A DNA stretch of 64,000 bases, taken from assembly GCA_036768485.1 (NCBI GenBank), contig JAVLUZ010000260.1, positions 101,004 to 165,003 on the forward strand. The letters are read 5' to 3'. Source of the stretch: Mermis nigrescens. Taxonomy: Eukaryota; Nematoda; Enoplea; Mermithida; Mermithidae. Every line of letters starts with the position of its first letter. The first letter of the stretch is position 1. The notes below the pieces were generated by a model. It worked only from the letters and a program-made list of their open reading frames with translations. It was not told the DNA's origin and did no database searches. A program made the translations under genes and the position numbers. Shown piece after piece: positions 17,547-63,479 of this stretch.

Positions 17547-17554
17547 ACTATAGT

Positions 17555-18627: not shown

Positions 18628-18635
18628 ACTATAGT

Positions 18636-33210: not shown

Positions 33211-33218
33211 TCTACAAT

Positions 33219-34390: not shown

Positions 34391-34397
34391 AATGAAA

Positions 34398-35908: not shown

Positions 35909-36188
35909 CCGCTGACCTCCCAAAATTTTTTGGTTTTAGAAAAATTTGTATAGCTCTGCAGAAAAGTAACTCAAGTCATAAAAATGCATTGAAGGTTGTT
36001 TTTTTACATAAATAATCATCAGAATTGACTTCTTAGAGACTTTTTCGCCTAAAAATGGAAAAATTTTGGATTCGTTCGAAAAGTTTTCTGTTGAAAAAGT
36101 TGTTTCAACGGATGCGCGACATCGAGAAACGTTTAAAAACAAAAAACAGCTATTATCTATGTGAATCAGACGTTGCATGACGTCATCG

Positions 36189-36295
36189 ACGCCAGAACAT
36201 GAATATGTTGAAAGGGCCTTTTTGGCCGCAGGATTGTCGTGTTTGGGACGTCGTAACAGATTGAAATATACCAATTTAAAAAATATTATTTTATG
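36189..36295 (+). pseudogene. hAT transposase C-terminal dimerisation remnant
   Basis: Reads EHEYVERAFLAAGLSCLGRR then NRLKYTNLKNIIL and a stop. VERAF.AAGL...RRNRL..NL is the hATC signature. Upstream frames are broken and no catalytic residues are identified. It lies in the right half of the hAT element, in the expected orientation relative to the element end. Confidence 0.75.
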
Positions 36296-36924
36296 AAAAT
36301 GAACCAACATTTGATTGAAATTTGAATTATTCGTTGTTTAAAATTGTTGTTGATGTCTGTGAGACAGAAAGAAATTTTCAAACAGTACAATAAGTATTCA
36401 TGAGTGATTATAATTTTAGCAGCAGTGTTTAAAAAATCGCATTCGTAATTTGGATTAATGTCGTGTTTGTGAGAAGCAGACTACACTATCTTTTGGTTGA
36501 CTCATGCTCATTTGTAAAAGTCTAAACTTGTGAGCTTTTACCCTTTTAGACAATTTTTACTGATATCATTTCTATGTAAAAGCTCTAAAATGCAAATTTT
36601 CCTCGGCTATGCCCCAGACTCCTCTGGGGGCTCTTATATCAGTCCCACCACCCGAGACCCCCAATCCATGTGGGCTCGGGCGCTTTACTGCCCTCCTTTT
36701 TAGCAATACAAATTGCTGCACAAAAAATATGTGTATCTGGATCTGATCTGTATCTGGATCTTTTTAAATTTTGATCTGGCAAAACGATCTGGATCTGGAT
36801 CTGGTTATTTTCTGTTCTGGTTATCTGATCTGGATCTGGATCTGCCAAGAATTCTGAAGCCTATCTTTATCTGATCTGGGTAAAAATCTGGATCTTTTAC
36901 ATCACTAGTATTAATGCAGTTATA

Positions 36925-37864
36925 ACAGGTGTCCCCTAAAAATCCGGAATTTTTTCAAACGTTTACAATGTCTTCAGTTTACCAAAATGTGTAAAAAGCA
37001 ATATATTATTACAAAGCTTATTCAATCTTCTATCCATTGAACTAAACTTTGGAATTCGTCGTGTAACTTGAGTTCTGAAAAATGCGTACAAATGAGGACA
37101 TTCTCCGATCACGTGTGTACAAGTTTTATTCCATCAACATTAGCAAAGGGAGGAAATTTACGATCAGGCATTTTGAGAACGGGGGTGTTCCAAAAAGTAC
37201 TATTTATGACATTATACGGAGATACTCCGATGGACACGAGTGCACTCGACGCACTGGATCTGGTCGGAACGCTAAAATTATTACAGAAAAAGAAACTGGA
37301 ACATTTGGAATCAGCATTTAATGACAGTTGCTCTATTTCTGTGCGTCGGGCGGCTGAAAAATATGGTGTTAGCAAGTCTTACATTCATAGAATCGTTAAA
37401 AACAAATTAAAATTGCAATTTAGAAAAAAACAAACCATTCCGTCACGATCGGATAAACAAATTGCATTAGCCAAGACAAAAGTGTGGACGCCTGTTTCGT
37501 CGTTTTGGTAACAAACATTTTGTATTGGACGATGAATCGTATTTTACCCTTTCACATTCTTCACTTAATGGTAACAGTGGATTTTACACGAAAAACGCAT
37601 CTAATGCTCCTTCTAGTGTTAAATTCAACAAGAAAAGCCAAATTCGAACAAAAAGTAAAAGTATTGTTTAAAGAAAGTTGATCGAAATGTTGTACAAAAG
37701 CTAACTTTTAGTACTAGGAAAAGACTTGACACAGTGCGACGCAATGGAGTTATTGAAGCTCGCGATTGAGTGTGATCTATTAGGCTTTTAATGCTCTTTT
37801 TGTTGATATATTACTTGTTGAGTTTAGCCTTTGAAAAAATTCCGGATTTTTAGGGGACACCTGT
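36925..37864 (+). mobile_element. Tc1/mariner-type element, internally deleted
   Basis: 940 bases with perfect ~35-base TIRs (start acaggtgtcccctaaaaatc, then cggaattttttcaaa) and TA on both sides (36923-36924 and 37865-37866). It encodes a broken transposase on the plus strand. Confidence 0.92.
37082..37775 (+). pseudogene. Tc1/mariner transposase, internally deleted
   Basis: The N-terminal HTH pair is recognisable: VPKSTIYDIIRRYSDG (first HTH) and AAEKYGVSKSYIHRIVKN (second). Then FVLDDESYFTLSH carries the first catalytic Asp. After SVKFNKKSQI the frame jumps to RNVVQKLTFSTRKRLDTVRR, the family's usual C-terminal end. The segment between, which should carry the second and third catalytic residues, is absent, and frameshifts occur before and after the second HTH. 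Transposase of this class cuts and pastes the element at TA. The DDE/DDD subtype cannot be decided because the third residue is lost. Confidence 0.85.
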
Positions 37865-38007
37865 TATACTCTTTGTATGTCAGACGTCTTGAAAACGACG
37901 CTACTTATTTTGGTCTAGTTTGCATTTTCCATTTTTTGTTTCTATTTTTATAAGTTAGAGCAGAGTTTCATCGTATTTGTTACGCTGGTTAATCGAATAA
38001 ATAGGTA

Positions 38008-38282
38008 TCCATGGAAATTCGGGGGGGGGTTTAAAAGATTTCTGGGGGGATAAAAAAATTTCCAAAGGTCAAAAAATGGTCTCGAAAGTAATTGTATGGT
38101 GAAAAAAACACCATTTTTCGAAGTTTCTCATCAAGCACTCACTATCCAATAGCATCAAAATATCGCTAGAAAAGCAAAAAAATTCCAGAAATTGTATTCT
38201 GGTGGGTATTTTGATTTCTGGGGGAGGGGTATTCCAACTTCTGGGGGTGCATACCCCAAACTTCCCCCTTCGCCCACATGTG
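38008..38282 (-). mobile_element. CT-MITE copy
   Basis: Landmarks inverted: aaaaacaccatttttcga, gtttctcatcaagcact, gtgcatacccc, cgcccacatgtg. TSD not clear. Confidence 0.65.
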
Positions 38283-41200: not shown

Positions 41201-42241
41201 GTCGACAAAGATATGCAGCTTTATTGTAATCATGTACATTAATAAGCCGTTAATCGGAAATACACCATTTGGAATGGAAAAGACTGCAGTTAATGAATAC
41301 ATATGTTAAACTTATTATCATAGGTAGCGCGATAGCGCTACCTATAATATACTTGGCCATCCTTTTTGCTCATATGTTTATCACAGCGAGTGCGAAATCT
41401 GTGTCCCCCATCACAGCAACAACGGCACACACCTGGGAGGTGCGGTTTATTTTAATCGATGGATAATTAAAAAGTTCGATGCCCGTGTTTTTTTCTTTTG
41501 TTTACACTCAATACTGAGTTAGCAATGAGCGTGTAAAGTGTAATGCAAAAGAACAAATAATTTGCGGAGATCCATTGTTTTTTTTAAATGTTGCCTCCTA
41601 GCTGTAGATTACGAATCTGACCTTAAAATTACTTTACACCCAACGGTTGTTGCACAAAAGTGTAAAGTATACGTGTTTTACTTTTGCGTGTCCTTCAGCG
41701 TATCTAACTCAGTTTTGGTTTCTGTGCAGTCCAATCGGTTCTATAATGTAGAGGGTTGCAAAATCTCAAATCGATTTTTTTCTTCTTATAACGCAACATT
41801 TTTCGGATCTGTGATCGTTTTAGTGTAAAGGGTTCGATACGAAAAACGATATCTCTTCAACTACTCCGCTAAGTAGGCGGAACATGCCATAATTATGCTT
41901 AAAGCAGCCTCGACCTTAGCGTTACAGTGCTTATTTTGTTTTATACACCCAATATTGCGATATTAGCACAAGTGTAAAGTTTACACCGAGAAGCATTTTG
42001 CGCCCAGTGCGTCGTGGATGATGAATTTTTTAAAATGTTCTCCGCAAGGTCAGAATAACGAATCTGACATTTTAAACTTTTCTACAGCCAGTGTTTGTTG
42101 AGGTATAAAGAGGTGAACTTTGAATTATACCTGCATCTATTTTCTAATGCTTGAGTAGATAACTCCGTATTGCATGCTTTTGATCAGATTTTTCGCGTAT
42201 TTGTGAGGTTTTTGACTCGGGGTTCTTTAATTGCACAGAGT
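38290..42241. repeat. Dispersed/tandem repeat rich in GTGTAAAG, left flank of the LTR element
   Basis: Long region with many (g)tgtaaagt and gtttacac words. Internal copies: aggtagcgcg(t/a)tagcgc..ataatatacttgg at 38938 and 41321; tcggagcaatat / gtttacac..gtttgttta blocks at ~40190, 40480, 40690 and 40970. Sections 38.3-38.9 kb and 39.24-39.96 kb match 61.6-62.0 kb and 60.36-61.03 kb, but in swapped order, as expected if the unit is tandem or circularly permuted. ORFs here, including a 193-residue one at 39449-38868, have no recognisable domain. The class is unknown. Confidence 0.55.
38597..38732 (+). mobile_element. CT-MITE, internally deleted
   Basis: 136 bases; ends cacacatgtgcg and (inverted) cataggtgggc; perfect 8-base TSD ttcgtgac (38589-38596 and 38733-38740). 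The central core is deleted. Confidence 0.85.
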
Positions 42242-42764
42242 TGTTAAAAATGGCCTTGAATCCAACTCCTTGCCCCGTGCCTAACTTTGCTTCGAAGTGT
42301 AATCACTATTTCACAACATAAAATATGCTATGTATTAATTAAAGTCAAACAACTATAAACAATAATAATGATTCAAAATAAGCCAATAATATAGACACCA
42401 AATAACAACGTCGCTACATAATGTTGATTCCACAAAACCCAACTCCACACTACGCTCTTCAATCCTTAAAAACTAAAGACTGAATGTTTCGATAAATTAC
42501 GAATCGAATGCAATTTTAAACATAAATAAATTTACATAGAGATTCAAAGGACGTGCCTGCTCAAACGGCGTCTCAAACCTTTTAACCTACGTAATATCCC
42601 TACAAGTTAAAACTAAATTACGCTACACAGAAAGAGAGACATGCTAAATAAGAAATCAAGGATCGCAAAATACGTGCCTAGAAACTTTAAACATAAATAA
42701 ACCTACAGTGTATAATTTTTCACGATTAACAGTTTACAAAGTAATAATTTGCATCCACGCTACA
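42242..42764 (-). repeat. 3' LTR (relative to the minus-strand element)
   Basis: 523 bases, nearly identical to 59573-60096. Read on the minus strand it starts TGTAGCGTGGATGC and ends ..CCATTTTTAACA, the TG..CA ends expected of LTRs. Confidence 0.9.
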
Positions 42765-42800
42765 CCCTCCGGCCTTAAGAGAAACCCTCTCGTCCCCTAA
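42765..42800 (-). promoter_or_regulatory. Polypurine tract next to the 3' LTR
   Basis: On the minus strand a purine-rich run (aaggccggaggg, preceded by gacgagaggg) directly abuts the LTR start, the position of the plus-strand primer in LTR retrotransposons. Confidence 0.6.
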
Positions 42801-42819
42801 GGAACTACATCAAAAATTA

Positions 42820-44057
42820 CGTACGTTCATTAATCAAACGATCAAAACGTCTAGAAACGTTTGGGGCTCTCAGACGCTCCCGACGATGATCCGGCAAAAC
42901 GGCCCTCATAGCTTCCTTCAAAGTACGAACACTCCTACCCAGCTTAACACGCGCTTTCAAAAATTTGGCTCTCCTGGCGACCGTGTGCGTATTTACTTGC
43001 ATATCCATACGATCCCACGCAAGGTTTCCTTCATAGCAGTAGCATGACCACCACACGATCTTGAATAAGAATCGGAACGCTGCCCCAAATAGTCGTCACA
43101 AAATTGATTCCATGACGTACCGTAGCGATAACCTTTACGCCACGCTTTTTTAAAATCGTACGAATCACGTTTCACTCGTCGATCCAATAGCCATGGCAAC
43201 GCTTTGATAATGACATTTAACCATCACCACCACGCCGTTTTGAGGTCCATTTGGAGGAGAAGTCTCCCTGTCCAAGCCAACGCCCAATAACGTACCAATT
43301 GTTGCTTCCATGGTTCCAATCGACCAAATTCTATTCCAACTCCACAAAATACCAACGTCCAACGCCGCCAACGCATCCTTAGCACTGTACAACAACATCC
43401 GATGCGAAAAATCTCGCACATTTACATTCCAATGGAAGCCGCACCGCCTCCTCCTTCGGCAGCTCCAATCCAAATCCGTATTCAACGAATGACGCCAAAC
43501 TCCCCTCGTCTCGCTCCACATGTTTGGATAATTCCGTAAACGCTCCTGTTGCTGCAATGGACGATAACGTTTGAATAAATCGACCATTTTCGTCCGTCCA
43601 CACGCCAATATCGCCGCCAAAGTTCGACAAATCGCGCCAGGATCTTGGTCGAAATCCCGGCCGAATTTTACGATGCTCACGTCCTCCAATAGCTGAACCA
43701 GACAACCTGGTAGCTTTGCTAACTGATGAAATCAAAAATATAAGCCGTCCCATCCACCTTCGCGATTTGCAAAATTCGGGCAAAACCACCCTTCGATTCA
43801 ATATCGATTTCAACCGACGCGAATTTCTTTTGATCGCTGGGCCAATATTCATACGACCGTCTCCAATTAACAAATTCTGCATCTAGTCCCAAAATCACAG
43901 GTATGTTAGGCGCAAACCTCTGACGCAACTCGACCACTGCAAGTTTGCACTCCTCTACCGTACGCACGACATGAATATTTTTCACCTCCAAAGGCTCACG
44001 TAGCAACGCCCTACGCCAAGCAACACGAATTCGCTCAAACGATTCCGACATGACCAA
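42820..44057 (-). pseudogene. DEDDy 3'-5' exonuclease-like ORF in the env position of the LTR element
   Basis: An ORF of ~410 residues, now split over at least three frames (44057-43719, 43882-43379, 43689-43165, then 43199-42817). It shows the exonuclease pattern: motif I VILGLDAEFVNW (Asp and Glu), then ARILQIAKVDGTAYIFDF; motif II DVSIVKFGRDFDQD; a LASFVEYGFGLELPKEE block; and motif III YSAKDALAAL (Tyr and Asp of DEDDy). This order is that of WRN/EXD2/RNase D exonucleases, which trim 3' ends of nucleic acid. A basic tail follows (ARRAKFLKARVKLGRSVRTL). It lies between integrase and the 3' LTR, where other elements have env or accessory genes. What it did for the element is unknown. A host gene fragment caught by chance is possible, but the exact fit between integrase and the purine tract argues for element ownership. 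Confidence 0.68.
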
Positions 44058-44239
44058 ATATAATAATTATTTCTAGAAAATTTCTAAGTTAGTTGCAAAC
44101 GACAATCGTATTATTCAAACAAACTTCTTAAATAATACTAACTATGTACACAAATATAATTAAACTTTAATTACAACCAGATATTTCTGGAGCCTTCCCT
44201 TCAGGGCAGTCCTGACAAGCTAATTTAAAAGCTTCTTCA

Positions 44240-45510
44240 AATCCTTTCATTCTATTATTTCCGAACAAGTGAGTACTGTTAAAAATGGAATTACGTTTTC
44301 CGTATTACAAAGTCCAAAACATTTTTTCAAAATGTAAAAACGTACTGGGATTTTATCATAATCACGTAAATTCAATTTTTCGATGTCCTCGGAAAGTAAT
44401 GACTTTTGCAGGCCAATAAGGATATCCCTTAATTTTTTGCGAAAAAAAACTATTTCTCCAACTTTCGAATTTAGTCGCAATTCCGAATTTTCAAAATTCT
44501 CAACCTTTTTTAAGCGATTCACATGCACTAACTTTGAAAAACGATTATCCGTAATCAAAGTTATTTTAACATTTAAATCCGAAATTTTCTCACTAATTTT
44601 GAATGGCCCGTCCCATTTTAGGGCAAGTTTTGGAGAAATCCCCTCGCCAATATTAGCTTTACGTAGATAGACAACATCTCCTACGTTAAAATTAACGAGA
44701 GTAGCCTTTTTGTCGTACTCATTTTTTTGATGTTTTTGCGCCTTTTCAATCGACTTTTTTTTGCTTGTTCATGCATTTCAGACAATGTGCTTTTCAGGAA
44801 ATCTAGAAAATTTTCCTCCGAGCAAATAGAACGTTGTTCTGGTGAAATTTGCGCTTCTAATGGGTATTTAGGTTCTCTGCCATACATCAACATGAATGGC
44901 GAGATTCCCGTTGACTCTTGCTGACAAGCACGATATGAAAAATAATATGACACGGCATGAATTATCCCATAGCATAGGTTGACGAGATACTAACGCTAAG
45001 CAAGCATTAGCTAATGTACGATTAAATCTCTCAACAAGCCCGTCCGTCTGGGGATGGTAGGCAGAAGTGAAAATTTTTTGTACTTCTAAAATTTCGCAAA
45101 TTTCTTTCATCAAATTTGACGTGAAATTTCCACCCTTGTCGGACAAAGTTGTCTCGTGTACCATGACGACAAACAATTTCACGTATAAAGATTTTTGCAA
45201 TTGCTGTAGCCTTCAGATCAGGGATAGGGAAAAGCCTTTCCGCCCATTTAGTTAAATAGTCTAAGAAAACTACGACATAGCGATTACCACTGAAGCAATG
45301 GAAAAATTCCATACAATCTACCGCTACTTTATCCCATGGCCCTTCTACTTCTATATTTTGTAATGGTGCACGTACATTACAATCGCGACTTACGTTTGAT
45401 ACAGATCTCACAACTTTACACCACTCAACAACGTTTTCCGTTATTGTAGGCCACCAAAATCTTTGCAAAATTCGACCCATTGTTCTCGCGATCCCGAAAA
45501 TGGGCACCTA
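44240..45510 (-). pseudogene. Integrase (gypsy pol)
   Basis: Catalytic-core pieces on the minus strand: VAVDCMEFFHCFSGNRYVVV (first Asp), TLSDKGGNFTSNL (second Asp, with Lys replacing the more usual Gln/Arg), and YHPQTDGLVERFNRTL (Glu). These fit the D,D-35-E pattern. A C-terminal part follows: STGISPFMLMYGREPKYPLE, then a Lys/Arg-rich stretch. Integrase inserts the reverse-transcribed DNA. Several frameshifts break it. Part upstream of the core, including the HHCC finger, is poorly preserved. Confidence 0.85.
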
Positions 45511-45879
45511 ATTCGGAATCGTGAAATTCTTTTAGCATCGCAGAAATCCACGCCAGCGGCACCACGGTTTGCCAAATCATCGGCGCTGCTCCGTTTTCGG
45601 TCTATACCGACGAACTAGTATATTATTTAGCACATCAAATTCATTTTTAATATCCAATGGGCAAGCACACGATTTAAGCTTTTCTTTAATACTACTATAT
45701 ATTCTATCTTTGTTTGTTTTTTTCCAATTTGAAATTCATTTTCCGGCTCATTCAAGATAACAGGCGAAACATTAGAATTTCTGGATAGCCAATCAGTTCA
45801 TTTTCTTTCCCAGGTGTGAAAGAAATTTCTGAAATCAAAAGCTTTAAAGCCCAACGCATTAATTTACCACTAGGATCTT

Positions 45880-46210
45880 TTAAATTAACAGCCATTTTAA
45901 TGGTTTATGATCCGTTTTTATTATAAATTTATTACCATATAAATATTGTCTAAAGTACTTAGTACTCCATACTATTCCAAGTGCTTCTTTTTCAATTACT
46001 GCGTAATTACGTTCATGTACGTTAAGGACGCGGGAGGCATAGGCAATTACCCATTCCTCATCCCCGTTTTTTTGACTCAAAACAGCGCCAAGCGCGTCAT
46101 TACTTGCGTCAGTACTCAGCACAAAAGTAGCACTTGAATCGAATACTGGAAATTTCAAAATTGGTGGACTAAACAAAAATCGCTTTTGAGTTCTTCAAAA
46201 CTTTTGTATG
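45880..46210 (-). pseudogene. RNase H-like domain (gypsy pol)
   Basis: Reads FVLSTDASNDALGAVLSQKN, WVIAYASRVLNVHERNYAVI, EKEALGIVWSTKYFRQYLYG, IKTDHKPLKWLL. These are the Asp, Glu and Asp blocks of the Ty3/gypsy RNase H that removes RNA from the hybrid during reverse transcription. It follows the RT as usual; the linker to the RT is frame-broken. Confidence 0.9.
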
Positions 46211-46487
46211 TTTTTCAGTCCACACGAATTTTTCGTTTTACTTGTTAATTCTATATAACGGACTAACTTTTCTAGCTAAATTAGCACAAAACGTTTAAAC
46301 CATTGAACACTTCCCAAAAAAGCTCTGCAATTTTTTTTACACTTCTTGGAGGTTCTGCATTTAATATCGAAGAAACCTTCGTGGATCAGGGCGAATCCCA
46401 TCCTTAGAAACTACGTGACCCAAGTAGGTGACCTCAGGTTGTAAAAAACTGCATTTTTTTCTGGCTTCACTTTCAAACTGACTTTCC

Positions 46488-47012
46488 TTAAAGCCGAAAA
46501 ATATGTCGTTCAAATCTTAGGTGTTTTTCGAACGTTGACGAAAATACTAAAATATCGTCTATGTAGACTAGACAAGAACGCCATTGTAAACCAGAAAGTG
46601 TTATTTCCATGATTCTTTGAAAATCTGCAGGGGCATTTTTTATTCCAAAAGGCATGACAGTGAATTCAAAATGACCAAAAGGTGTTGTGAATGCCGTTTT
46701 TTTACGAGAATTTGGGTCCATTTCTATCTGCCAGTAACCTGACCGAAGATCTAAGGTAGAGAAAAATTTCGCACCCGATAAACTATCAAGACACTCCTCC
46801 ATGCGAGGTAGCGGATAAACATCCGTTTTAGTAACCAAATTTAACCCTCGATAATCGACCACAGGGCGCATAGAACCATCCTTTTTTCTAACAAGAAAAA
46901 TATTTGCCGACCACGGACTTTTTGACGGAATGACAATGCCATCTTTTTGCATTTCTTTAACAATTCTTTCAAGCTCGAATTTTTGACGAAATGGAATTCG
47001 AAATTGTTTCAA
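46488..47012 (-). pseudogene. Reverse transcriptase (gypsy pol)
   Basis: 174 open residues with WSANIFLVRKKDGSMRPVVD, YPLPRMEECLDSLSGAKFFS, TLDLRSGYWQI (first Asp), TTPFGHFEFTVMPFGIKNAP and YIDDILVFS (the catalytic Asp pair). This is the best-preserved domain of the element and is typical of Ty3/gypsy. It is preceded by protease and followed by RNase H. Frameshifts on both sides make it non-functional. Confidence 0.95.
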
Positions 47013-47123
47013 TTTCTACAGGTTGATGATCTCCTGTCTCAATTTTATGCTTAACTAACGTCGTTCTGCCTAGAGAGTCGTTCCCAAAGCTTAAAATATC
47101 AGAATTTTTAATCAACAAATCCC

Positions 47124-47447
47124 TTAATTTCGCTTTTGCTGATCATCGACGGATGATTCGACTTTTTCAAGGCATTTATCGACAAATTTTTCGTTATTTT
47201 CAGCACTTTTACCCGTTGAAAATGAGAATTTTTCTAAAGAGGTGAAATCCTCAAGCCGACCCACCTGAGTTCCGCCGATAACAACAGGCTTATTATGCAC
47301 ATTAAGCAAACGCACAGGCATAAATTCTGTTTGAGCAGATACTAAAGCTTGTGCTGCAAATACAGACAGTTCGATACACAAATATTCGTCAGGTACGAAT
47401 AATGCGTTTTCTTTAGCAAAATTACAATTTAATTGCGCATTTATCAC
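47124..47447 (-). pseudogene. Linker region between protease and RT
   Basis: 107 open residues (LNCNFAKENALFVPDEYLCI, then VRLLNVHNKPVVIGGTQVGR) between the protease and RT. This hydrophobic-polar segment is common in gypsy polyproteins after the protease and has no separate function assigned. Frame-broken at both ends. Confidence 0.55.
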
Positions 47448-47559
47448 TGCTTCACATCTAGTAGGATAAATATTTCATCGTGTACAAACGTACGCAAGAT
47501 TAGCATTAGAATTAGCACTGCTATAAACAGGTTGATATAAAGAAATCTTTTCGCCATTA

Positions 47560-47850
47560 ATTATTGTGTACCCTTCGGCTATATGCGGTATCATAATTTT
47601 TATCGATGAAATCGCATCCGAAAATGATACGTCTTGGTGCTTTTTCGACTAACGAAAACATTTCGTTAAAGTTGATTTTATCGTAACCTAAAGCTAATTT
47701 ACCAAAAATATCAAGCGTCGAACAACTTGCAGTCCCACATGAACTAATTGGTTTTCCTTTTTTATGGTCATTTTAAGCTTTAATTTTACAAATTCTAGAG
47801 ACATTAAAGTTACGTCGCTTCCTATATCAATTAATGCATTTGTTTCGTTA
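47560..47850 (-). pseudogene. Aspartic protease (gypsy pol)
   Basis: ALIDIGSDVTLMSLEFVKLK carries the active-site Asp in an Asp-Ile-Gly-Ser context (variant of the common Asp-Thr-Gly), followed downstream by RRIIFGCDFIDKN, matching the usual ILG.DF block. It would process the Gag-Pol polyprotein. At least one frameshift lies between the two blocks. Confidence 0.7.
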
Positions 47851-49093
47851 CCATCACGTGACACTTTCCTAATAGGTAACTTACGTTGTCGTATAACGCT
47901 CCTACCATACTGGAATTAGACCCTTCTAGCTGCACTAGCCTTTTTACTAGCTCTGCATTCTGCTGTATTAGCTGCTCCTGAAGCTTGGAATCTACCATTG
48001 TGCTCGTCGCCAGATCCGCTCGGCGAATTAGCATTATTACCATTTTCGATCGAAGGCCTTCTCCAAACAGTATTCCGCTGATTTTCAAATGTGCGCGGCC
48101 AACTTCCTCGAAATTTACCGACAGCGCCGTCGGACATTGAGCTGTCGAATGTCCTCTTCCGCCACATCTATAACAGTTCAATGGCGGTTTAGGCCTACTG
48201 TAATGATTTTGCATCATATTTCTAGGAGCATACGAGTTAAGTTGTCGATTATTGAAATTCGAATTAAAATTTGACGTATTTTTTGCATTAGAGCAAAAGG
48301 CTTATGCTGCAATTTTTCTTGTCTTTGAATTTCTAAAATTCATCTTGTTTTTGTTGTATTTCAAGCTTTTTTGTTGTCGACAAATTCGTTTTAATTTCTT
48401 TTAACTGTTGCGAAAGTTTGCTAATAGCTAGCCACAATTTTTCATCGCCCCTTTCCCCATTCTTTACAGCCATAATTGACTCGATTTGGGGAGGGCTAGT
48501 TCCAAGCACAGGTATGCCAGTCCACAAGTCAGGTTTAAACGGACTTTCTATACGTTTAGCTATTTCTAAAGCTTTTTCCAATGTTTCAGGTGTACCAGAA
48601 ATCGTCAAAATATTGTAATATTTAGGCAAAAGACCGGTTATAAATTGAACTTTAACAAGTGTTTCTATCTCTTCCTTATTATTAATCAAATCTGATATGC
48701 ACGTTTGCACATCGTTAAGAGTCTATGACAGAAAAAAATCTAAAGACTCGTTTTCTCTTCTTGCTTCCTCGCGTGAAATTCTAAAAATAGCTTTTTCACG
48801 TACAGCGGTGGTTGAAAGTGATCAATTAAGTTACTTTTTACGGTTGCATAATTATTACGTTCATTTTCATTTATACCGAAAATACGGAACGCGGATATGA
48901 TTGTAAACAAAGCGGTAACGCCGCAAGTTTCACTTCCTCACTTAAACCGCCTGCTGCTGCTAAACTTTCGAAATCCTCAAAACTGGAAAATAGCTTTTCC
49001 TGTTTCACCATTAAATTTTTTCACACTCGTTTGCACGATTTGCAAAAATCGCATACGCTAGTAACGCATTTACAACCTCAGCATTTTCAGCCA
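47831..49093 (-). pseudogene. Gag with CCHC zinc knuckle
   Basis: It probably begins at an ATG near 49093 (MAENAEVVNALLAYAIFANR). 48710-48333 gives VQFITGLLPKYYNILTISGT and ETLEKALEIAKRIE, the capsid-like region of retrotransposon Gag. 48217-47831 carries CYRCGGRGHSTAQC (Cys-x2-Cys-x4-His-x4-Cys), which binds the element RNA. Several frameshifts interrupt it. The Polinton lies just upstream, between gag and the 5' LTR. Confidence 0.8.
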
Positions 49094-49548
49094 TTTTCTT
49101 CTCTTTCCAGTCTCAAATTCAATTAAATCGAAAATTCGCCCGAGTCTACAAAACTTTTTTAAAACGTTACCGGTCCGGGCTACCTTCGTTACTTTCTTCT
49201 TCGACGACAGCTAGTTGACGCTCTTTTTCAATTCTTATCCTTCTAGTTTCGACTGTCAAAGGTGGCAACAGTAGTAAAGCCGGACCTTCTGGCTATACAA
49301 TGGTTAAGCATAGCATGTATAAGATATAGCAGTGCTTGCTGCCATAGCACACGCTTAAACATAGACTTCGTCTAGAAGAAGCTGAGCTTTCATAGGCCCA
49401 TACTACGCATAACCCTAAAACATATAGCCCCATAGAGCCGAACGAGAAGGCCAACCCGTGAATCATAAGCACAAAACGCCAAATAGAGGACAACCCTAAA
49501 CCTTACTTCAAAGCGCCCAGAGATGGTCATCCCATGTACTGACAACAA

Positions 49549-49660
49549 ATTATATTTTATCCTATTTTTATTTCAAAATGCAGATGAAAGTTATTATTAG
49601 TTGTTGTCTACAAATTTTATTTTATCCTATTTTTAGTTCAAATGCAGACAATTGTTATTT
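49549..49660 (+). repeat. 64-base tandem duplication in the Polinton arm
   Basis: Two units sharing aattttattttatcctatttt and aaatgcagacaa-like words. The inverse pair occurs at about 59045-59165, so it predates the palindrome. Confidence 0.6.
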
Positions 49661-49849
49661 TATAAAAAAGTTTTTCTTTTTGTAAAGTCCAAAGTCCACA
49701 ATTTCCGGTTTTTTCTGGTTTGGTTCGATTCTAAGAATAGTCTCATCTCAGAAAGAAAAGGAGGGCGCAGGGAGTGAAAATCATTCTCCGATATCTCCAA
49801 CCCTTTTTGAGCTCTCAATTTCGCTCTTGAAATCGCTGTGATTCAAATG

Positions 49850-52800
49850 GATTCCGACATCGAAATGGTCGATGACTTGCAAACGCAGGACGAGTGGTAC
49901 GAAACGGATAAAGAAATGCTGGAGGAAGACTCGAAGTGGTGGACGAGTGGTACCCGCCAGAGGAATTTTACGAGTTGGGGGAGCCGGAAACTCAAAAAAT
50001 AAAAACGGTTCAACACGGAAGGGCGCGCACACGCTGAACTTTAAGAATTTGATCGCCTCGAAAAAAAATTTGGCCGAAATCTTTGACAGCGCCGTCACAC
50101 AGATTTTGGACGGTTCTAACACACGGACATGGTGGGTCTGCAAATAACCCACCCGACCCTCAAGAAGCCGGCCATCATTCCTTTCGCAAAGGAGCTGAAA
50201 TAAACAGTGAACAAATTGTACATACTATCGAGCGGATTTTACAGTCAAAAACGAGGAAGTGCAACTTGAACAGCCGGAAACGCGGATAAAAATAGTACAG
50301 GTTAGTCAGCCAAGTGGGTCTGGACAGCATAAACGTAGATTTGTAAATTTGGAAAAAGAATGAAATCTAAAAAATGTTTTGTAAAAATTAAAAACAATGA
50401 TGATTTATGGTTTAGCTAGGCTTTAGTAAAGTAAAAGCACGAGCGTTGCACATGGAAAAGCCTTGACGATAAAACTCTTAAATCGAAATACAAGGCAATA
50501 TGTATGGGTGACGCATATCGGTACACAAATGCAGCGAACTAATGCAAAGGAGCTGATGGATCTCGCAGGCCTCGAGACCATGTAGGCTCCTTGCGTATAC
50601 CGGAGCTGCAAGCATTGCAGGCTGTACGCCAAACTTTCAAATTAAAGTCTTTAGCGCCGATTTCTGTAACGCCATAGCTTTTGAGGGGCCGCCTGTTGTA
50701 AATTTGCAATTACAATACACCATTTTGACGTTATTGGAAGTATGGCCAGTTTCATGAATCGTGGGTATTTTTGTGAACCATGTAACAAGGGATACACAAC
50801 AAAAACGAGTAATCGCTGCTCCCAGAGCTTGCCCCTGCTGTCACGGACCTGTATGCCCAAACATTGCTCTGACAGAATGCAGGGATTGTGGCCGACTCTT
50901 TAGAGGCCAACAATGTTTTGACCATCATAAAAATGTTGGGAAAAACAATTTATCAATATGCCAACAGATGAAACGATGCGATAAATGCAATCGGCACATT
51001 AATAGAGCTGATAAAATAAGAAACATAAATGTAGTCAGTTTTATTGCAAGATTTGTAAAACAGATGTACCTAAAAACGATCATAAATGTTACATGAAACC
51101 GATAGAAATTGAAAAGGATGAAAAGAAAAACAAAAAATACGTGTTTTTCGATTTCGAAACATGCCAAGAAAAGATCTGTGGCAATACAAACGCAGGACTC
51201 CAATTAGAACACGAACCTAACTTATGCATAGCGCATATAATATGCATGAAGTGCAAGGATAAAACTACTCGGAGGAACATTGCGGCGAAAATCGCCGAAT
51301 ATTTTTTGAAAAAAACTGTGAAAATGAATTTTGCGATTTTTTATTTGGCCCGAAAATGCTATAGCAATTGCACATAAATGCAAAAGGTTTTGATGCTTAT
51401 TTTATCCTAAAATACCTTTTTCAAGCAAGCTATAGTACCCACAATAGTCACCCGCGGGCTTGAAATTATGAGCTTAACAGCAGGCTCTGTAAAATTAATC
51501 GATTCCTTCAATTTCTTGCCAATGGCTTTATCGGCTTTACCAAAAACTTTCGATGAACCTGAATTGAAAAAGCCCCACATCTTTTCAACACGGCCGAAAA
51601 CGAAAATTATGAGGGTGAGTGGCCGGATGCCCGTACTACTCCCCAGCTACAATGAACCCCAGAGCCGAGGAAACTTTTATACTGGTATCAAGAGCAGAAA
51701 GGCAAAATGTTCAATTTTAGGACTGAACTTTGGCCTTACTGCGAGTCGGATGTTGATATACTCCGACGGTGCTGCCTCAAATTTCAAAATTATTTTTGGC
51801 TGAAACTGGCTTAACTTTTGAAACATCTTTAACAATCGCGAGCGCGTGTAATAAAGTTTTCCGGTCAACCTACTTAAAACCAAACACAATAGGCATTGTA
51901 CCACACGGTGGGTATAGGCGGATGGAAAAACAATCAATTACCGCAATCAAATGGTTAAAGTGGGTAAGCGAAACAAATAAAATCAACATCAGGCATGCGC
52001 GCAACATGGGGGAGCAAAAGGTAGGAAACTATCGAGTTGACGGCATACACGAAAAGACTGTATATGAATTTAATGGATGCTTTTGGCACGGGTGCCCGAA
52101 ATGCATGAAAAAACGAACGAAAGCTTACAGCCGATCAATTAACAACGGCTGAAGAGGCATACCAAAACACGATAAGACGACGCAAAACAATAGAGGCTCA
52201 AGGGTACACTGTGACTGAAATGGGAGTGCGAACTAAATCAAGAGCTAAAATCAAATTTTGAAATGAAAAATTTTTTCAGTTCAATCAAAATTGTAGACCC
52301 ATTAGACTTGCGGGAAGCATTTTATGGTGGAAGAACAAATGCCATAAAATTGCTCGAAAAGATCAAAAAGGATCAAAATGGGGCTCCCTCTGGAAAAAAT
52401 CAGTTACACAGACATATGCAGTTTGTACCTGACCGTAAATAAGTATGGGTTGTATCCCATAGGTCATCCACAAATTTTCACGAAAACTTTTAGAAATTTC
52501 GGCTGAAAAACGACCATATGAGGACTAATTAAGGCCAAAATTTTACCACCCAAAGGCCTGTACCATCCAGCATTGCCATATGATTCGGGGATAAATCTAT
52601 ATTTCCTATGCCGAACATGCACTGAAACGCATCAGGTAACAAGATGCGAGCACAGTGATGAAGTAACGGGCGATAGTGGCATGGGTGACGCTCGAAGTGT
52701 ACAAAGTACTAGAGTTGGGCTACAAAATTCTCGAAATTTTCGGAAGTATGGCATTGCGAAAATCCGGAAAAGTATGACCTCGTTACCAACTTGATGTAGC

Positions 52801-53690
52801 CTATTTACGGAGTACATCAACAAATTATGAAATTAAAGCAGGAATCGGACGGATACTTGGGTGAAAACGATGATGACAAAACAAAATATATACTTCTCGG
52901 AATACAAAATAAATATGAGGGAATAGAACTTGGATCCAGCCAAAATTCAAAATCCGGGGATGCGCGCACTTCTCGCAACTAATGCTTAATTTTTGTGGTA
53001 TCAAAGGAACAAATACGACCAAAGTTTCATTTTTCACTGATCCGCCCTTATATTTGATTCAGTTTTTGACCCAACAAACGTTATTTACTTGATAAACGCC
53101 ATCAATGAGAACATGATAGCAGATAATACGCAAAAGAGGATGATTTCGCTGAAGTTATGGGAAATACCAACGTTATGTCAGGCCTACACAAATACGCCTG
53201 AAGTGCGCTTATGACTTTAGAACATCTGAAAATTAGGCGACGAGTACTTTACTTCGATACAGACAGCGCGGATTTCTTTTAAATCGACGCTGAATAAAGA
53301 TGAGCGTTTAGCGCCTATTGGATCATACTTGGGCAATAATGACTGACGAACTGAAGGATTACGGCTCTGGCGCTTACATAGAAATATTCGTGAGCGGAGG
53401 GCCTAAAAATTATGCTTACAAAGTCTACTCGGCTCGAAAACAAATTTTACTATCATATAAAGCAGAGGCTTCACCTTGAACTCGGCTGGTGTCAAAAATC
53501 AATTTTTATTACTAAAAATGGTCAAAATTTTTGTACAGGAAAACAATATCATTGAAAAAACTGTATATTTTCCACAAATTCGGCGATTCGATCATACTAT
53601 AGTGACAGAAGATGCGTCTAAAAAGTATAAAATTGTTTATAATAAACGGGTTGTAAAGCCCGATTTTTCAACAGTGCCCTATGGTTTTTA
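49850..53690 (+). pseudogene. Protein-primed DNA polymerase B, left-arm copy
   Basis: Broken family-B polymerase of the Polinton type, which replicates linear DNA from a protein primer. In order: an acidic N-terminus (from ~49850); a zinc-ribbon region with CPCCHGPVCPNIALTECRDC (50761-51000); exonuclease motif I FFDFET (~51143); an IDSFNFLPMALSALPKTF block (51490-51560); CESDVDILRRC-like sequence in shifted frame (~51725-51780); EFNGCFWHGCPKC (52066-52110); a palm motif with SLY (~52410); the catalytic YFDTDS (~53250-53267); and GPKNYAYKV (~53400-53430). Many frameshifts separate the blocks. It is the inverted twin of 55030-58870 and retains the catalytic Asp-Thr-Asp-Ser that the twin has lost. 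Confidence 0.85.
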
Positions 53691-53739
53691 ATATGTCCAT
53701 AACTCGATTGTATGTTTGTTTTTTCTGGGTGCACTTCAT

Positions 53740-53930
53740 ACCCTGTGAGGAGCAGGTACATGGTGCAGTGTACCCAGTGCCTGTATTATTTTTGCTGCTG
53801 CCGCCTGTACCTTGTGGAAGCAAGTTCGTGGCAGGAGGTAGCAGCGTTCTGTGTGATTGCTTCTTTTTCCACTGCCGCCTGTACCTTGTGGAAGCAAGTT
53901 CGTAAGGTGGTAGCGGATTTGTATGTGCAT
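53740..53930 (+). repeat. Short duplicated segment in the left arm
   Basis: Two copies of gccgcctgtaccttgtgga followed by agcaagttcgt. It has an inverse counterpart at about 54760-54860, where the same duplication is visible. The small ORFs read here have no recognisable domain. Confidence 0.6.
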
Positions 53931-54210
53931 ATGGACGAAAAAGGGACTGTTTTAATAAATTTTGTGAATATTATATGCATCTTCTGCTTCACTATTCCAT
54001 CTTTTTTGTGTATTGTTTCATAGAATTTTTCATTTTGTTTAAAGAATAGAAAAGTGCATAAAAATCGAAAAAACCTAAAAATCACCCAAAAATTTTATGC
54101 TCTCACGTGCATCCGGCTCCCGCAAAAGCCGAGAGTGGAAACGCTGTTTTACAGCGGCTAAGTGATGCACACATCCCCCTTTTTTTCTATATAAGATTTT
54201 CTTGTTCAAA

Positions 54211-54483
54211 AAATAATAAAAAAATGTTAAATAGTACTTGCATAAATACGAAATCATTTGCAACCTATTTATAACGAAATTTTAGGTTGTATTGTTCTCA
54301 TAATTGTCTTATCAATTTTAGTTTTGTGCAAACTTTTTTGAAGAAACAAATTAAAACATTTTATAGCGGTTGGCGTAGCTTTTTAAGATCTAGTAGAAAT
54401 GGATCTCGCCAATTGTCTACAGTGTTCCATGAAACCCAGATCGAAATACCATTACGAAATTTGCAATTTTCTGCATAAGTAAA
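54211..54483. other. Non-palindromic spacer at the centre of the Polinton
   Basis: About 270 bases between the arms. The left arm ends near ctatataagatttt and the right starts near aaatcttatatag. An ORF of 63 codons (54287-54478) spans most of it but is not recognised; it may be a fragment of another Polinton gene. Confidence 0.6.
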
Positions 54484-55029
54484 TCTTATATAGAAAAAGG
54501 GGGGCGCATCACGAAGCCAAACAGCGCTTCCACTCTCGGCACGGGAGCCGGATGCACGAGAGCATAAAAATTCTTGGCAGATTTTTAGGTTTTTTTTTCA
54601 ATTTTTATGCACTTTTCATTCTTTTAAACAAATGAAAAATTTCATGAAACAATACACAAAAAGATGGAATAGTGAAGCAGAAGATGCATATAATATTCAC
54701 AAATTTATTAAAAACAGTCCCTTTTTCGTCCATATGCACGTACAAATCATACCACCTGCCACGAACTTGCTTCCACAAGGTAATGGCGGCAGGAAAAGCA
54801 CCATGAACGCCGCTACCTCCTGCCACGAACTTGCTTCCACAGCGTACAGGCGGCAGCAGCAAAAAAAATAATACAGACCGGGCACACTGCACCACGCACT
54901 ACTCCTCACAGGGTATGAAGTGCACTCCAGAAAAAACAAACATACAATCGAGTTATGGACATATTAAAACACAGAAAATTGTTGAAAAATCGGGCTTTAC
55001 AACCCGTTTATTATAAACAATTTTATACT

Positions 55030-58000
55030 TTTTAGACGCATCTTCTGTCACTATAGTATGATCGGGTAATCGCCGAATTTGTGAAAATATACAGCTTTTT
55101 TTTCAATGACATGTTTTCCTGCACAAAAATTTTGACCATTTTTAGTAATGAACAAAAATTGATTTTTGACGCCGCGAGCGAGTTCACAGAAGCCTCTCAC
55201 TTTATATGATAGTAAAATTTGTTTTCCGAGCCGAGGTAGACTTTGTAAGTATACTTTAGGCCTCCGCTCACGAATGCTTCTATGTAAGCGCCAGGCCGTA
55301 ATCCTTCGTTCGTCAGTCATATTGCCCAAGTATGATCCAATAGGCACTTCATACTATCTTTATTCAGCGTCGATTTAAAAATCACGCCAGTTCGTATCGA
55401 AGTAAAGTACCTGATCGCCTAATTTTTCCAGATGTTCATAAAGTCTTGGTTATTGCTTGAGCTGTTGTGTAGGCCGCGAGCACCGCGTTGGTATTTCCCA
55501 TAACTTCAGCGAAATCATCCCTTTTTTTGCGTGTCACTGCTATCATGTTCTCATTGATGGCGTTTATCGAGTAAAGAATGCTTGTTGGGTCAAAACTAGA
55601 TCAAAATATGGGGCCGGATCAGTGAAAATGAAACTTTGGTCAGCGTTGTTCCTTTGACCGAATTTTCCCCAAAAAGAATTAAGCATTAGTTTAGAGAGTG
55701 CGCGCATCCCCATGATTTTTTGAGATTTTGGCTGGATCAAGTTCTATTCCTCATGTTGTTTGTATTCCGATATATTTTGTTTTGTCATCCGTTTTCACCC
55801 AAGAAGGCCATCCGTCCGATTCCTGCTTTAATTTCATGAATTTGTTGATGTACTCCGTAAATAGACCCCCATCAGGGTTGGTAACAGGGTCATACTTTTC
55901 GGATTTTTCATAATGCCATACTTCGAAAATTTCGAGAATTTTGTAGCCCAACTCTATGCTTTGTACACTTCGAGCGTCACCTATGCACCCACTATCGCCC
56001 GTTCTTCATCACTGTGCTCGCATCTTGTTACCTGATGCGTTTCAGCATGCTCGGCATAAGGGGAAATATAGTTTATCCCTGAATCTGTATGGCAATGCTG
56101 GATGGTACAGGCCTTTGGGTGGTAAAATTTTCGGGCCTTAATTAGTCCCTACATGGTCGTTTTTCAGCCGAAATTTCTAAAAGTTTTCCGTGAAAATTTG
56201 TGGATGACCTATGGGATACAACCCATACTTATTTACGGTCGGGTACAACTGCATAAATTCTCGTGTAACTGATTTTTTCCAGGGGAGCCCCATTTTTGAT
56301 CCTTTTTGATCTTTTCGAGCAATTTTATGGCATTTGTTCTTCCAAATTATAAAATGCTTCCCTGGGATCTAAATGGGTCTACAATTTTGATTGAACTGAA
56401 AAATTTTTCATTTCAAAATTTGATTTTAGCTCTTGATTTAGTTCGCACTCCCACATTTCAGTCACAGTGTACCCCTTTGAGCCTCTATTGCTTTGCGTCG
56501 TCTTATCGTGTTTTTAGGCGCTTCTTCAGCCGTTGTTAATTGATCGGCTGTAAGTTTTGTTCGTTTTTTCATGCATTTCGCACCCGTGCCAAAGCATCCA
56601 TTAAATTCATATGCTGTCTTTTCGTATGCCGCCAACTCGATAGTTTCCTACCTTTTGCTCCCCCATGTTGCGCGCATGCCTGATGTTGATTTTATTTGTT
56701 TCGCTTACCCACTTTAACCATTTGATTGCGTAATTGATTGTTTTTCCATCCGCCTATACCCACCGTGTGGTACAATGCCTATTGTGTTTGGTTTTGGGCA
56801 GGTTGACCGAAAACTTTATTACACGCGCTCAAGCGATTGTTAAAGATGTTTCAAAAGTGTCTAAGCCAGTTTCAGCCAAAAATAATTTTTGAAATTTGAG
56901 GCAGCACCGTCGGAGTATATCAACATCCGACTCGCAGTAGGCCAAAAGTTCAGTCCTAAAATTGAACATTTTGCCTTTCTGCTCTTGATGCCAATTGTAA
57001 AAGTTTTCTCGGCTCTTGGGGTTCATTGTAGCTGGGGAGTAGTACCAGGCATCCGGCCACTCACCCTCATAATTTTCGTTTTCGGCCGTGTTGAAAAGAT
57101 GTGGGAAAAAAACCCTTTTTCAATTCAGGTTCATCGAAAGTTTTTGGTAAAGCCGATAAAGCCATTGGCAAGAAATTGAAGGAATCGATTAATTTTACAG
57201 AGCCTGCTGTTAAGCTCATAATTTCAAGCCCGCGGGTGACTATTGTGGGTACTATAGCTTGCTTGAAAAGGTATTTTAGGATAAAATGGCCATCAAAACC
57301 TTTGCATTATGTGCAATTGCTATAGCATTTTCGAGGTACAAATAAAAATCGCAAAAATTCATTTTCACAGTTTTTCCAAAAATATTCGGCGATTTTCGCC
57401 GCAATGTTCGCAGAATCCGAGTGGTTTATCCTTGCACTTCATGCATATTATATGCGCTATGCATAAGTTAGGTTCGTGTTCTAATTGGAGTCCTGCGTTT
57501 GTATTGCCACAGATCTTTTCTGGCATGTTTCTAAATCGAAAACAATACGAGTTTTTTGTTTTTCTTTTTCATCCTTTTCACTTTTGTCGGTTTCCATGTA
57601 ACATTTATGATCGTTTTTAGGTACATCTGTTTTACAAATCTTGCAATAAAACTGACCACATTTTATGTTTCTTTATTTTATCAGCTCTATTAATGTGCCG
57701 ATTGCATTTATCGCATCAAGCTTCATCTGTTGGCATATTGATAAATTGTTTTTCCCAACATTTTTATGATGGCCAAAACATTGTTGGCCTCTAAAGAGTC
57801 GGCCACAATCCCTGCATTCTGTCAGAGCAATGTTTGGGCATACAGGTCCGTGACAGCAGGGGCAAACTCTGGAGCAGCGGTGCTCGTTTTTGTTATTGTA
57901 TCCCTTGTTACATGGTTCACAAAAATACCCACGATTCATGAAACTGGCCATACTTCCAATAACGTCAAAATGATTATTATTATGATAAGAAATTTACAAT

Positions 58001-58870
58001 TTTTTCTGGGCGGCCCCTCAAAAAACTATGGCGTTACAGAAATCGGCGCCAAAGACTTTAATTTGAAAGTTTGGCATTGCAGCCTGCAATGCTTGGTGTA
58101 CCCGGTATACCGCAAGGGCCTACATGGTCTCGAAGGCTCATGCAGATCCATCAGCTCCTTTGCATTAGTTCGCATTGTGTACCGATATGCGTCACCCATA
58201 CATATTGCCTTGTATTTCGATTTAAGAGTTTTATCGTCAGGCTTTTCCATGGCAACGCTCGTGCTTTTGCTACCACTAAAGCCCTAGCTAAACATAAATC
58301 ATCATTGCTTTTAATTTTTACAAAACATTTTTTAGATTTCATTTTTTTCCAAATTTACAAAATCTACGTTTATGCTGTCCAGACCCACTTGGCTGACTAA
58401 CCCGTACTATTTTTATCCGCGTTTCCGGCTGTCTAAGCGTAACTTCCCGTTTGACTGTAAAATCCGCTCGATAGTATGTACAATTTGTTCACTGTTTATT
58501 TCAGCTCCTTTGCTAAAAGGAATGATGGGTCGCTTGAGGGTCGGGTGGGTTATTTGCAGACCCACCATGTCCGTTGTGCTAGAACCGTCCAAAATCTGTG
58601 TGACGGCGCTGTCAAAGATTTTGGCCAAATTTTTTTCCAAGTCGAGGCGATCCAAATTCTTAAAGTTCAGCATGTATGCTGCCCTTCCGTGTTGAACCGC
58701 TTTATTTTTTGAGTTTCCGGCTCCCCCAACTCGCAAAATTCCTCTGGCGGGTACCACTCGTCCACCACTTCGAGGTCTTCCTCCAGCATTTCTTCATCCG
58801 TTTCGTACCACTCGTCCTGCGCTTGCAAGTCATCGACCATTTCGATGTCGGAATCCATTTGAATCACAGC
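55030..58870 (-). pseudogene. Protein-primed DNA polymerase B, right-arm copy
   Basis: Inverted twin of the left-arm gene. In order on the minus strand: an acidic N-terminus (58867-58667); NSEQIVHTIERILQSNG (~58500); CLARALVVAKA (~58290); the zinc-ribbon region starting GYFCEPCNKGYNNKNEHRC and CPCCHGPVCPNI (57951-57673); CESDVDILRRCCLKFQKLFL (57026-56829); and near 55400 a catalytic site altered from Asp-Thr-Asp-Ser to Asp-Thr-Asn-Trp. The N-terminal third is better preserved than in the left arm, while the catalytic site is worse. Neither copy can be functional. Confidence 0.85.
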
Positions 58871-59449
58871 GATTTCAAGAGCGAAATTGAGAAGCTCAAA
58901 AGGGTTGAGATATCGGAGAATGATTTTTTCCTCCCTGCGCCCTCCTTTTTATACTTTCTGAGATGAGACTATTCTTAGAATCAGACAAACCGGAAAAAAC
59001 CGGAAATTATTGGACCTTGGACTTTACAAAAAAGAAAAACTTTTATAAAATAACAATTGTCTGCATTTTGAACTAAAAATAGGATAAAATAAAATTTGTA
59101 GACAACAGCTAATAATAACTGTCTGCATTTTGAAATAAAATAGGATAAAATATAATTTGTTGTCAGTACATAGGATGACCATCTCTGGGCGCTTAGTAAA
59201 AGTTTAGAGGGTTGTCCCTCTATTTGGCGTTTTGTGCTTATGATTCACGGGTTGGCCTTCTCGCTCGGCTCTATGGGGCTATATGTTTTAGGTTATGCGT
59301 AGTATGGGCCTATGAAAGGCTCGAAGCGCCTTCTAGACAGAGTCTCTATGTTTAAGCGTGTGCTATATGCTTAAGCACTGCTATATGCTTAACCATGTGC
59401 TATGCTTAACCATTGTATAGCCAGAAGGTCCGGCTTTATTACTGGCAAC

Positions 59450-59572
59450 CATTTCACTTTCGGGCAACATTCACTTTACCTCAATTTTTCTTCGAATTTA
59501 GCGGAAATCCACTCGGTCTATAAATAAAACGAAGTTCGTCAATTGGGACCTCCAAGTTATGTAACAGAGAGC
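59450..59572 (-). promoter_or_regulatory. LTR-element leader with possible primer-binding site
   Basis: Minus-strand sequence between the 5' LTR and the Polinton. tggaggtcccaattgac, ~18 bases after the LTR end, starts with the TGG complementary to a tRNA CCA end and could be the primer-binding site. The tRNA is not identified, and the distance from the LTR is larger than usual. Confidence 0.4.
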
Positions 59573-60096
59573 TGTTAAAAATGGCCTTTGAATCCAACCC
59601 TTGCCCCGTGCCTAATCCTTTGCTTCGAAGTGTAATCACTATTTCACAGCATAAATATGCTATGTATTAATTAAAGTCAAACAACTATAAACAATATTAA
59701 TGATTCACAAAATAAGCCAATAATATAGACACCAAATAACAACGTCGCTACATAATGTTGATTCCACAAAACCCAACTCCACACTACGCTCTTCAATCCC
59801 CAAAAACTAAAGACTGAACGTTTCGATAAATTACGAATCGAATGCAATTCTTAAACATAAATAAATTTACATAGAGATTCAAAGGACGCTCGCTCAAACG
59901 GCGTCTCAAACCTTTTAACCTACGTAATATCCCTACAAGGTAAACTAAATTACGCTACACAGAAAGAGAGACATGCTAAATAAGAAATCAAGGATCGCAA
60001 AATACGTGCCTAGAAACTTTAAACATAAATAAACCTACAGTGTATAATTTTTCACGATTAACAGTTTACAAAGTAATAATTTGCATCCACGCTACA
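59573..60096 (-). repeat. 5' LTR (relative to the minus-strand element)
   Basis: 524 bases, differing from 42242-42764 by scattered 1-3 base changes. Minus-strand ends TGTAGCG..TTAACA. Confidence 0.9.
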
Positions 60097-63235: not shown

Positions 63236-63458
63236 CACACCTGGGCGTGGGAGGGTTTGGGGTATGCACCCCCCAGAAACCAAAATAACCCCCAGAATTC
63301 AATTTTTAGAAATTTTTTTCGTTTTTTCGCAATTTTTGATGCCAATGGATAGTGCTTAATGAGAAACGTCGAAAAATGGTGTTTTTATCGCCATGCCACC
63401 ATTTTTTGACCTTCAAAAAATCTTGCACCCCCAAGAATTTTCTTGGTTCCAACGTATG
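63236..63458 (+). mobile_element. CT-MITE copy
   Basis: Ends cacacctgggcg and (inverted) catacgttgg; flanks attcggac (63228-63235) and gttgggac (63459-63466) match at six of eight positions. Confidence 0.7.
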
Positions 63459-63479
63459 GTTGGGACCGTCATGCGACTA

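Follow-up and report, generated by a model that had tools for sequence, protein, structure and literature searches.

The stretch of Mermis nigrescens DNA analysed here, hereafter the window (64,000 nucleotides; contig JAVLUZ010000260.1, positions 101,004 to 165,003 of the forward strand), carries at 49270-59443 an element with Polinton borders, built as two long inverted arms around a short spacer and lodged in a Gypsy retroelement. A blastn comparison of the window with itself returned one inverted pair of such size, 49269-54214 against 59444-54466, with 89.86% identity over 5117 columns. The arms are about 4.95 kb each (identity 89.9%), and the first 5000 columns of their MAFFT alignment hold 420 substitutions at 4779 sites and 110 gap events. 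The terminal sequences, AGTAGT on the left and ATTACT on the right, are of the AGT...ACT type, and a perfect 6-bp target-site duplication (TSD), GGCAAC, flanks both ends. Each arm contains a polB remnant that faces inward and that tblastn showed to be riddled with frameshifts and stops. Two of the ten fragments submitted to Pfam, both from the right arm, matched DNA_pol_B_2 (PF03175; E 3e-7, and 1.8e-5, the second just below the Pfam cut-off); the remaining eight gave no match at E 0.1. The original prediction, made from the letters of the window, had described these borders, two inverted arms of about 5 kb and a decayed, inward-reading pPolB gene in each, and all of this is confirmed, with a spacer of 251 bp in place of the claimed ~270.

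The features are as follows; L015 and L016 are sequence pieces of an ordinary relative, C74:65598-81338, described below.

42234..60096, minus strand: host Gypsy long terminal repeat (LTR) retroelement, interrupted by the palindrome (LTR alignment, domains, empty-site copies)
49264..49269, no strand: left TSD, GGCAAC (sequence)
49270..54214, plus strand: left arm, the PolB end of a Polinton, reading inward (blastn self-inversion)
49270..49515, plus strand: terminal inverted repeat (TIR) proper, ~246 bp common to the non-PolB end of ordinary elements (left arm 1-246 matches the far end of C74, L015 299-557)
49703..53688, plus strand: left-arm polB remnant with many frameshifts and stops (tblastn with two L016 open reading frames, ORFs)
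54215..54465, no strand: spacer, the fold-back loop, extending the left arm in parental order from L016 ~4352 down to 4081 (parental comparison)
54466..59443, minus strand: right arm, inverted copy of the PolB end (blastn self-inversion)
54472..54481, no strand: turn-back junction, ~10-nt overlap of two parental sites with one mismatch (sequence)
54977..59006, minus strand: right-arm polB remnant, with Pfam DNA_pol_B_2 at 57067-57306 and 56829-57119 (tblastn, Pfam)
59444..59449, no strand: right TSD, GGCAAC (sequence)

The element is a defective Polinton derivative and not a full member. It has the family B DNA polymerase of the protein-primed type (PF03175), as a broken polB gene in each arm, and the AGT...ACT TIRs with a 6-bp TSD. 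It ends at L016 4081, and the parental rve integrase lies at L016 2914-3744; the ATPase, protease and capsid genes, which the relative carries beyond L016 4081, are likewise absent by position. The TIRs of vertebrate Mavericks measure 46-1,447 bp with a mean of 402 in the part of PMC8097293 used here, so arms of ~5 kb fall far outside that range.

The palindrome inserted as one piece

The Gypsy LTRs, at 42234-42764 and 59565-60096, differ by 10 substitutions in 526 aligned bases (1.9%), and Pfam recognized RVT_1 and Integrase_H2C2 in the host element, plus a zinc knuckle below the cut-off. We searched the assembly (524 Mb, 860 contigs), scoring the best 40 loci for each probe. The empty-site probe joined both flanks without the element and with a single GGCAAC. 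Among the best 40 of 59 candidates, the site is contiguous at C61:48573528 and C61:47520279 (both 1-600 of the probe, 95%) and at C47:5777689 (1-599, 88%); the first two, alike in score and in LTR spacing, are perhaps one duplicated copy. Fifteen more distant loci among these 40 also span the site unbroken (1-417 or 2-417, 69-71%). Since one TSD surrounds both arms and Gypsy copies run uninterrupted through the site, insertion of the palindrome as a unit, part of the original prediction, is well supported.

Ordinary relatives and the turn-back junction

The relative C74 is 15.7 kb long and contains PolB, an rve integrase, a C5-type protease, an ATPase-like ORF and an F-box-like ORF. Its PolB ORFs gave Pfam polymerase matches at E 2.8e-21 and 3.9e-20 and its protease one at E 1.4e-6; the ATPase-like match is weak and below Pfam cut-offs, and two ORFs at the capsid position had no Pfam match. 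The PolB ORF matches many animal PolBs, for example that of a Rhodactis coral adintovirus (47% identity). The far, non-PolB end shares merely ~246 bp with the PolB end, and the ends of C74 carry no matching TSD. C142 has the same gene order, C614 and C791 are collinear with the PolB side, and C68 is non-palindromic.

Two genes of C74 deserve separate mention. The F-box-like ORF (L015:1172-1621, plus strand; E 6.4e-4, below the Pfam cut-off) adjoins its left TIR, and a TATA-binding-protein gene lies at L015:3106-3663 on the minus strand (Pfam TBP, E 9.3e-44), with related stretches in the C68, C58 and C61:48.44M elements. C74 and C422 have in common an 8.6-kb interior that is 99.7-99.8% identical, yet neither has a matching TSD.

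Comparison with this parent locates the turn. The left arm and the spacer are contiguous with L016 from 5540 to 4081, while the right arm begins at L016 4352, which makes the spacer a one-sided loop of parental sequence, with one terminus duplicated in inverted form. The two parental turn sites, 271 bp apart, share TGC[A/T]TAAGAA, 10 nt with one mismatch.

The original prediction had pointed to same-centre copies and full-length parents as informative finds; an ordinary relative is C74, and no second copy of the window centre with the same junction appeared in the best 40 of 162 candidates. The other scored loci divide into 21 whose match covers arm plus spacer in the usual order (~1-540, in one case from 47), which include the two arms of C61:48.16M and the two of C93, and 18 whose match is confined to the spacer. 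A reading of the loop as a dispersed repeat in its own right was rejected: the two spacer-only loci that were checked, L054 and L055, belong to a different Polinton subfamily that keeps the usual order and has a diverged intergenic segment next to the loop.

One template, then decay

The window arms form a cherry in the trees of all three segments analysed, with support of 0.909, 1.000 and 0.952 (12, 9 and 7 sequences), and in the middle segment they are closest to each other (94.7%). A 2-kb mid-arm probe from the left arm found the right arm as its top match (92%, 2818 bits; next C180, 85%, 2182; best 40 of 333 candidates), and the corresponding right-arm probe found the left arm (92%, 2782 bits; next C180, 84%, 2124; best 40 of 330).

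We then compared the arms with C180 and C142 by codon position, at gap-free sites where both relatives agree; this filter depletes third positions equally in the shared and the arm-specific classes. Changes common to both arms fall at position 3 in 122 of 163 cases (75%). The arm-specific changes, 133 and 122 in number, do so in 25% and 29% (68/255 pooled; Fisher 1.6e-22 for common against arm-specific). Deletion-type gaps number 43 in the left arm, 34 in the right and 5 in common, and insertion-type gaps 20 in the left only, 20 in the right only and 5 in both. Because the common changes are rich in third positions and the arm-specific ones are not, one working polB was duplicated and both copies decayed afterwards: the template gene was under constraint before the duplication and decay followed it. 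That both arms would have been copied from a single template is well supported by these comparisons; the same does not hold for C61:48.16M.

Other fold-backs in the same genome

Six further fold-back centres were found, making seven with that of the window, and five of the seven include a copy with a perfect TSD. C180 (5.9 kb) is asymmetric: arm positions 1-4763 are followed directly by 903-1 inverted, with a 2-nt overlap and the TSD CACAGC. In C93:127982-141456 the arms are 99.4% identical over 6523 columns, polB and integrase regions included, with the TSD AATGTT; the innermost ~200 bp are less alike (82-88%). There, one side of the centre is 95% identical to C205 and C452 (158 bp) against 89% to C332, and the other side is 98% identical to C332. 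This centre was found only at C93 among the best 40 of 487 candidates. C61:4355640-4368513, examined at its ends and centre, is palindromic through the centre (91.6% over the 1.85 kb read) and has the TSD TCGGCT. C422 represents the non-PolB end: 9.5 kb, with the first ~1 kb repeated inverted and a 7-nt overlap. The overlap in C61:48.16M is 9 nt, so that overlaps across the fold-backs are 2, 7, 9 and ~10 nt.

Both element ends yield fold-backs, the PolB end in the window, C93 and C180 and the non-PolB end in C422 and in the small family described next. In palindromes read to both arm ends the inversion exceeds the termini by at most 5 bp, except for ~22 bp at L014, where the target appears by eye to be partly self-complementary.

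The small family comprises numerous palindromes of the L012 type, 3-4 kb long, with Polinton TIRs. Among the matches listed for the best 40 of 672 candidates, 74 long ones make up 34 inward-facing pairs and 6 singles; several loci have identical sizes, and some may be duplicated contigs or segments. Both terminal motifs were present in 6 of 11 loci checked, all six with perfect, differing TSDs (CATATT, TACCCC, ATCCGG, TATGGC, GCCAAT and GACCTT); in the other five, the search of the stretch examined missed at least one of the two motifs. About 465 bp shared with the left end of C74 in L014 and L029 assign the family to the non-PolB end. This many-copy family shows that palindromes can spread and move as units.

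For the kinship of its arms we used the 19 arms longer than 1 kb, with 8 complete pairs, dropping shorter pieces. Doubletons were common to the two arms of one element in 35 of 36 cases, against 4.7% expected by chance; three elements supply 34 of these 35. Among the first three elements, 53 sites are shared within an element and 3 between elements. Six of the 8 arm pairs are cherries in the family tree (L030 and L034 are not). Variants that are element-specific and shared between arms imply that the arms were alike at insertion, or were equalised as palindromes. An ORF of 210 aa reads outward in the arms; a C2H2-like motif can be recognized in it by eye, and it has no Pfam match. Of the 19 arms, 11 keep an ORF that starts with ATG and is 200 aa or longer. 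Changes in this zinc-finger ORF fall 15, 13 and 6 times at codon positions 3, 1 and 2, and with so weak a position-3 bias we do not claim selection on it.

Several further structures were noted. C61:48.16M (PolB end) and C422 (other end) turn at the same site, L016 ~3077-3085, inside the integrase gene, which may reflect chance, a pause site or a break site. Imperfect hairpins lie in two non-palindromic elements (L026:1527-1740 and L027:1609-1862) at the positions of the C93 and small-family centres, and are absent from five other elements examined for them (L016, L017, L054, L009 and L025, the last bar one 40-bp match). Such natural hairpins possibly seeded two palindromes; L027 may also be the remnant of one. 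Opposed PolB-arm matches, inward and outward facing, at C814:116593-121240 and C839:268948-273363 could be fold-backs or rearrangements. For the candidate pair at C775, no palindromic centre was seen within ~950 bp, and the right end yielded no terminus. Elsewhere in the window there is a 2.06-kb direct tandem duplication (14832-18947, 99.1% identity) and a dispersed ~200-bp repeat in both orientations (32776-38266, 6360-6530, 13520-13722 and 63236-63460).

Origin of the palindromes

The view that Polintons multiply by protein priming, as free linear DNA with TIRs at its ends, rests mainly on gene content. The best explanation of the window element, and in our judgement a probable one, is a snap-back or template switch on such an intermediate, followed by integration. 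Replication of a free linear copy, bounded by its TIRs, would proceed from the PolB end. In the stretch that separates polB from the integrase gene, the growing strand or the template would fold back or switch strand at the inverted TGC[A/T]TAAGAA microhomology, and synthesis would return to the terminus, so that the PolB end replaces the opposite end. Replication of the resulting hairpin would yield a palindrome bounded on both sides by a TIR. The palindrome has no integrase gene, and its insertion into the Gypsy element, which made the 6-bp TSD, presumably used integrase supplied in trans. Copying to the very terminus and integration with a TSD are what a free linear molecule predicts, since a linear template simply ends. 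The same product would result whether the nascent strand folded back or copying moved to the displaced strand or to a sister molecule. Protein-primed replication of Mavericks/Polintons is treated in the parts of PMC8097293 and PMC6431247 used here.

The geometry of the fold-backs and their recurrence in this genome are plain in the assembly. In the snap-back on protein-primed DNA put forward by the original prediction, the geometry fits and copying from one template is supported; the strand switch and the priming are the conjectural part. Added to that proposal are several fold-back events, a many-copy palindromic family and arms that seemingly diverged before this insertion.

Several observations weigh against such an origin. 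In raw identity the arms are nearer to C68 (95.4% and 95.9%) than to each other (94.6%) in the outer segment, and nearer to C180 (93.1% and 89.9%) than to each other (88.4%) in the inner one; a probe from the outer 600 bp of the left arm scored C68 (810 bits) above the right arm (787 bits). The right-arm result with the mid-arm probe offsets these weaker identities. The parent abounds in inverted 8-mer pairs no more than 600 nt apart (52 in 2 kb), so microhomology by itself does not single out replication. C48:9.38M shares the centre of C61:4.36M (92%) and lacks a TSD; C422 also lacks one, as does C61:48.16M, whose arms come partly from different parents and have decayed unequally, and which we therefore do not count toward unit insertion. 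Substitutions between the window arms in the polB core (179/2705, 6.6%) exceed those between the Gypsy LTRs (Fisher 3.6e-6), and the arms were probably not identical at this Gypsy insertion. Finally, protein priming, the polymerase, the free linear intermediate and integration in trans are inferred.

The excess divergence bears on a history that overlaps with snap-back formation, namely that the palindrome is an older mobile unit, which arose a single time, had already decayed, and reached the Gypsy element by a later move in trans. The window arms exceed LTR divergence, and the small family, with arms that were alike at insertion or were equalised as palindromes, demonstrates that a palindrome can move; the absence of a second copy of the window centre among the candidates scored speaks against such a move. 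We consider this history possible though rather doubtful. LTR conversion or faster mutation of inverted arms would also explain the excess, and rates of gap events do not differ significantly between arms and host LTRs (p 0.35).

A chromosomal origin, in which gap repair or ectopic recombination would create an inverted duplication or lengthen the TIRs before the TIR-bounded piece transposed, seems unlikely to us. A TIR expansion model of this type exists for fold-back elements such as Galileo. It would accommodate the TSD-less C61:48.16M and C422, the mosaic of different subfamilies in the arms of C61:48.16M, the tandem extra TIR copies at L006, L019 and L030, and the inner 211 bp of one C93 arm, which are nearer another subfamily. 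Against it stand the window arms as mutual best matches mid-arm and as a cherry in every segment, inversions that stop at the termini (with L014 as the exception), and fold-backs from either element end.

Two Polintons inserted head to head and joined by deletion would likewise yield inverted arms, and this may fit C61:48.16M, one arm of which is far more decayed; for the window, where a single TSD encloses both arms, an empty site occurs in other Gypsy copies, and codon positions and mutual best matches give the arms a common prior history, we rejected it as very improbable. Least credible of all is an assembly fold-over or hairpin-read artefact, which we rejected: long palindromes are an assembly hazard and the structure was seen in the assembly, but the arms differ by many independent substitutions and indels, the flanks are unlike, the TSD and empty Gypsy sites are in place, and there are several separate cases.

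We also advance, tentatively and at slightly less than even odds, a wider proposal: snap-back genomes may be a normal, heritable class of Polinton by-product, with palindromes of the PolB end and of the opposite end arising recurrently from protein-primed replication and integrating through their TIRs with 6-bp TSDs, and with the 3-4-kb zinc-finger palindrome as a multi-copy satellite whose arms are re-equalised via a hairpin stage. They would then be the endogenised counterpart of defective snapback virus genomes. Fold-backs that reach the termini and integrate with TSDs would be a genomic trace of the free linear intermediate, from several events in one genome, and would offer an easy way for a complete virus-like element to give rise to non-autonomous satellites.

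Comparison with known systems

A literature search of titles and abstract openings found no published description of palindromic Polintons; snapback defective genomes and fold-back transposons are already known kinds. With Polintons/Mavericks, adintoviruses included, the window element shares the PolB gene, the AGT...ACT TIRs and the 6-bp TSD; unlike them it consists of the PolB end twice, without the integrase, protease, ATPase and capsid part of its relative. The fold-back transposons FB and Galileo, and other non-autonomous elements with long TIRs, have very long inverted arms, TSDs and non-autonomous spread, but belong to other superfamilies with other transposases and carry no PolB. Palindromic adenovirus recombinants (SYREC) and the deletion palindromes of the yeast killer plasmid pGKL1 are protein-primed linear DNAs with one end duplicated in inverted form; unlike the present elements, they do not form a family of genomic insertions with TSDs. 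Snapback subgenomes of adeno-associated virus, symmetric and asymmetric and of 5' and 3' kinds in the part of PMC8235507 used here, resemble the Mermis fold-backs in being self-complementary for a left or right moiety, with one terminus and, if asymmetric, a single-strand loop; those are packaged molecules of a parvovirus, whereas here a PolB element has been fixed in chromosomes.

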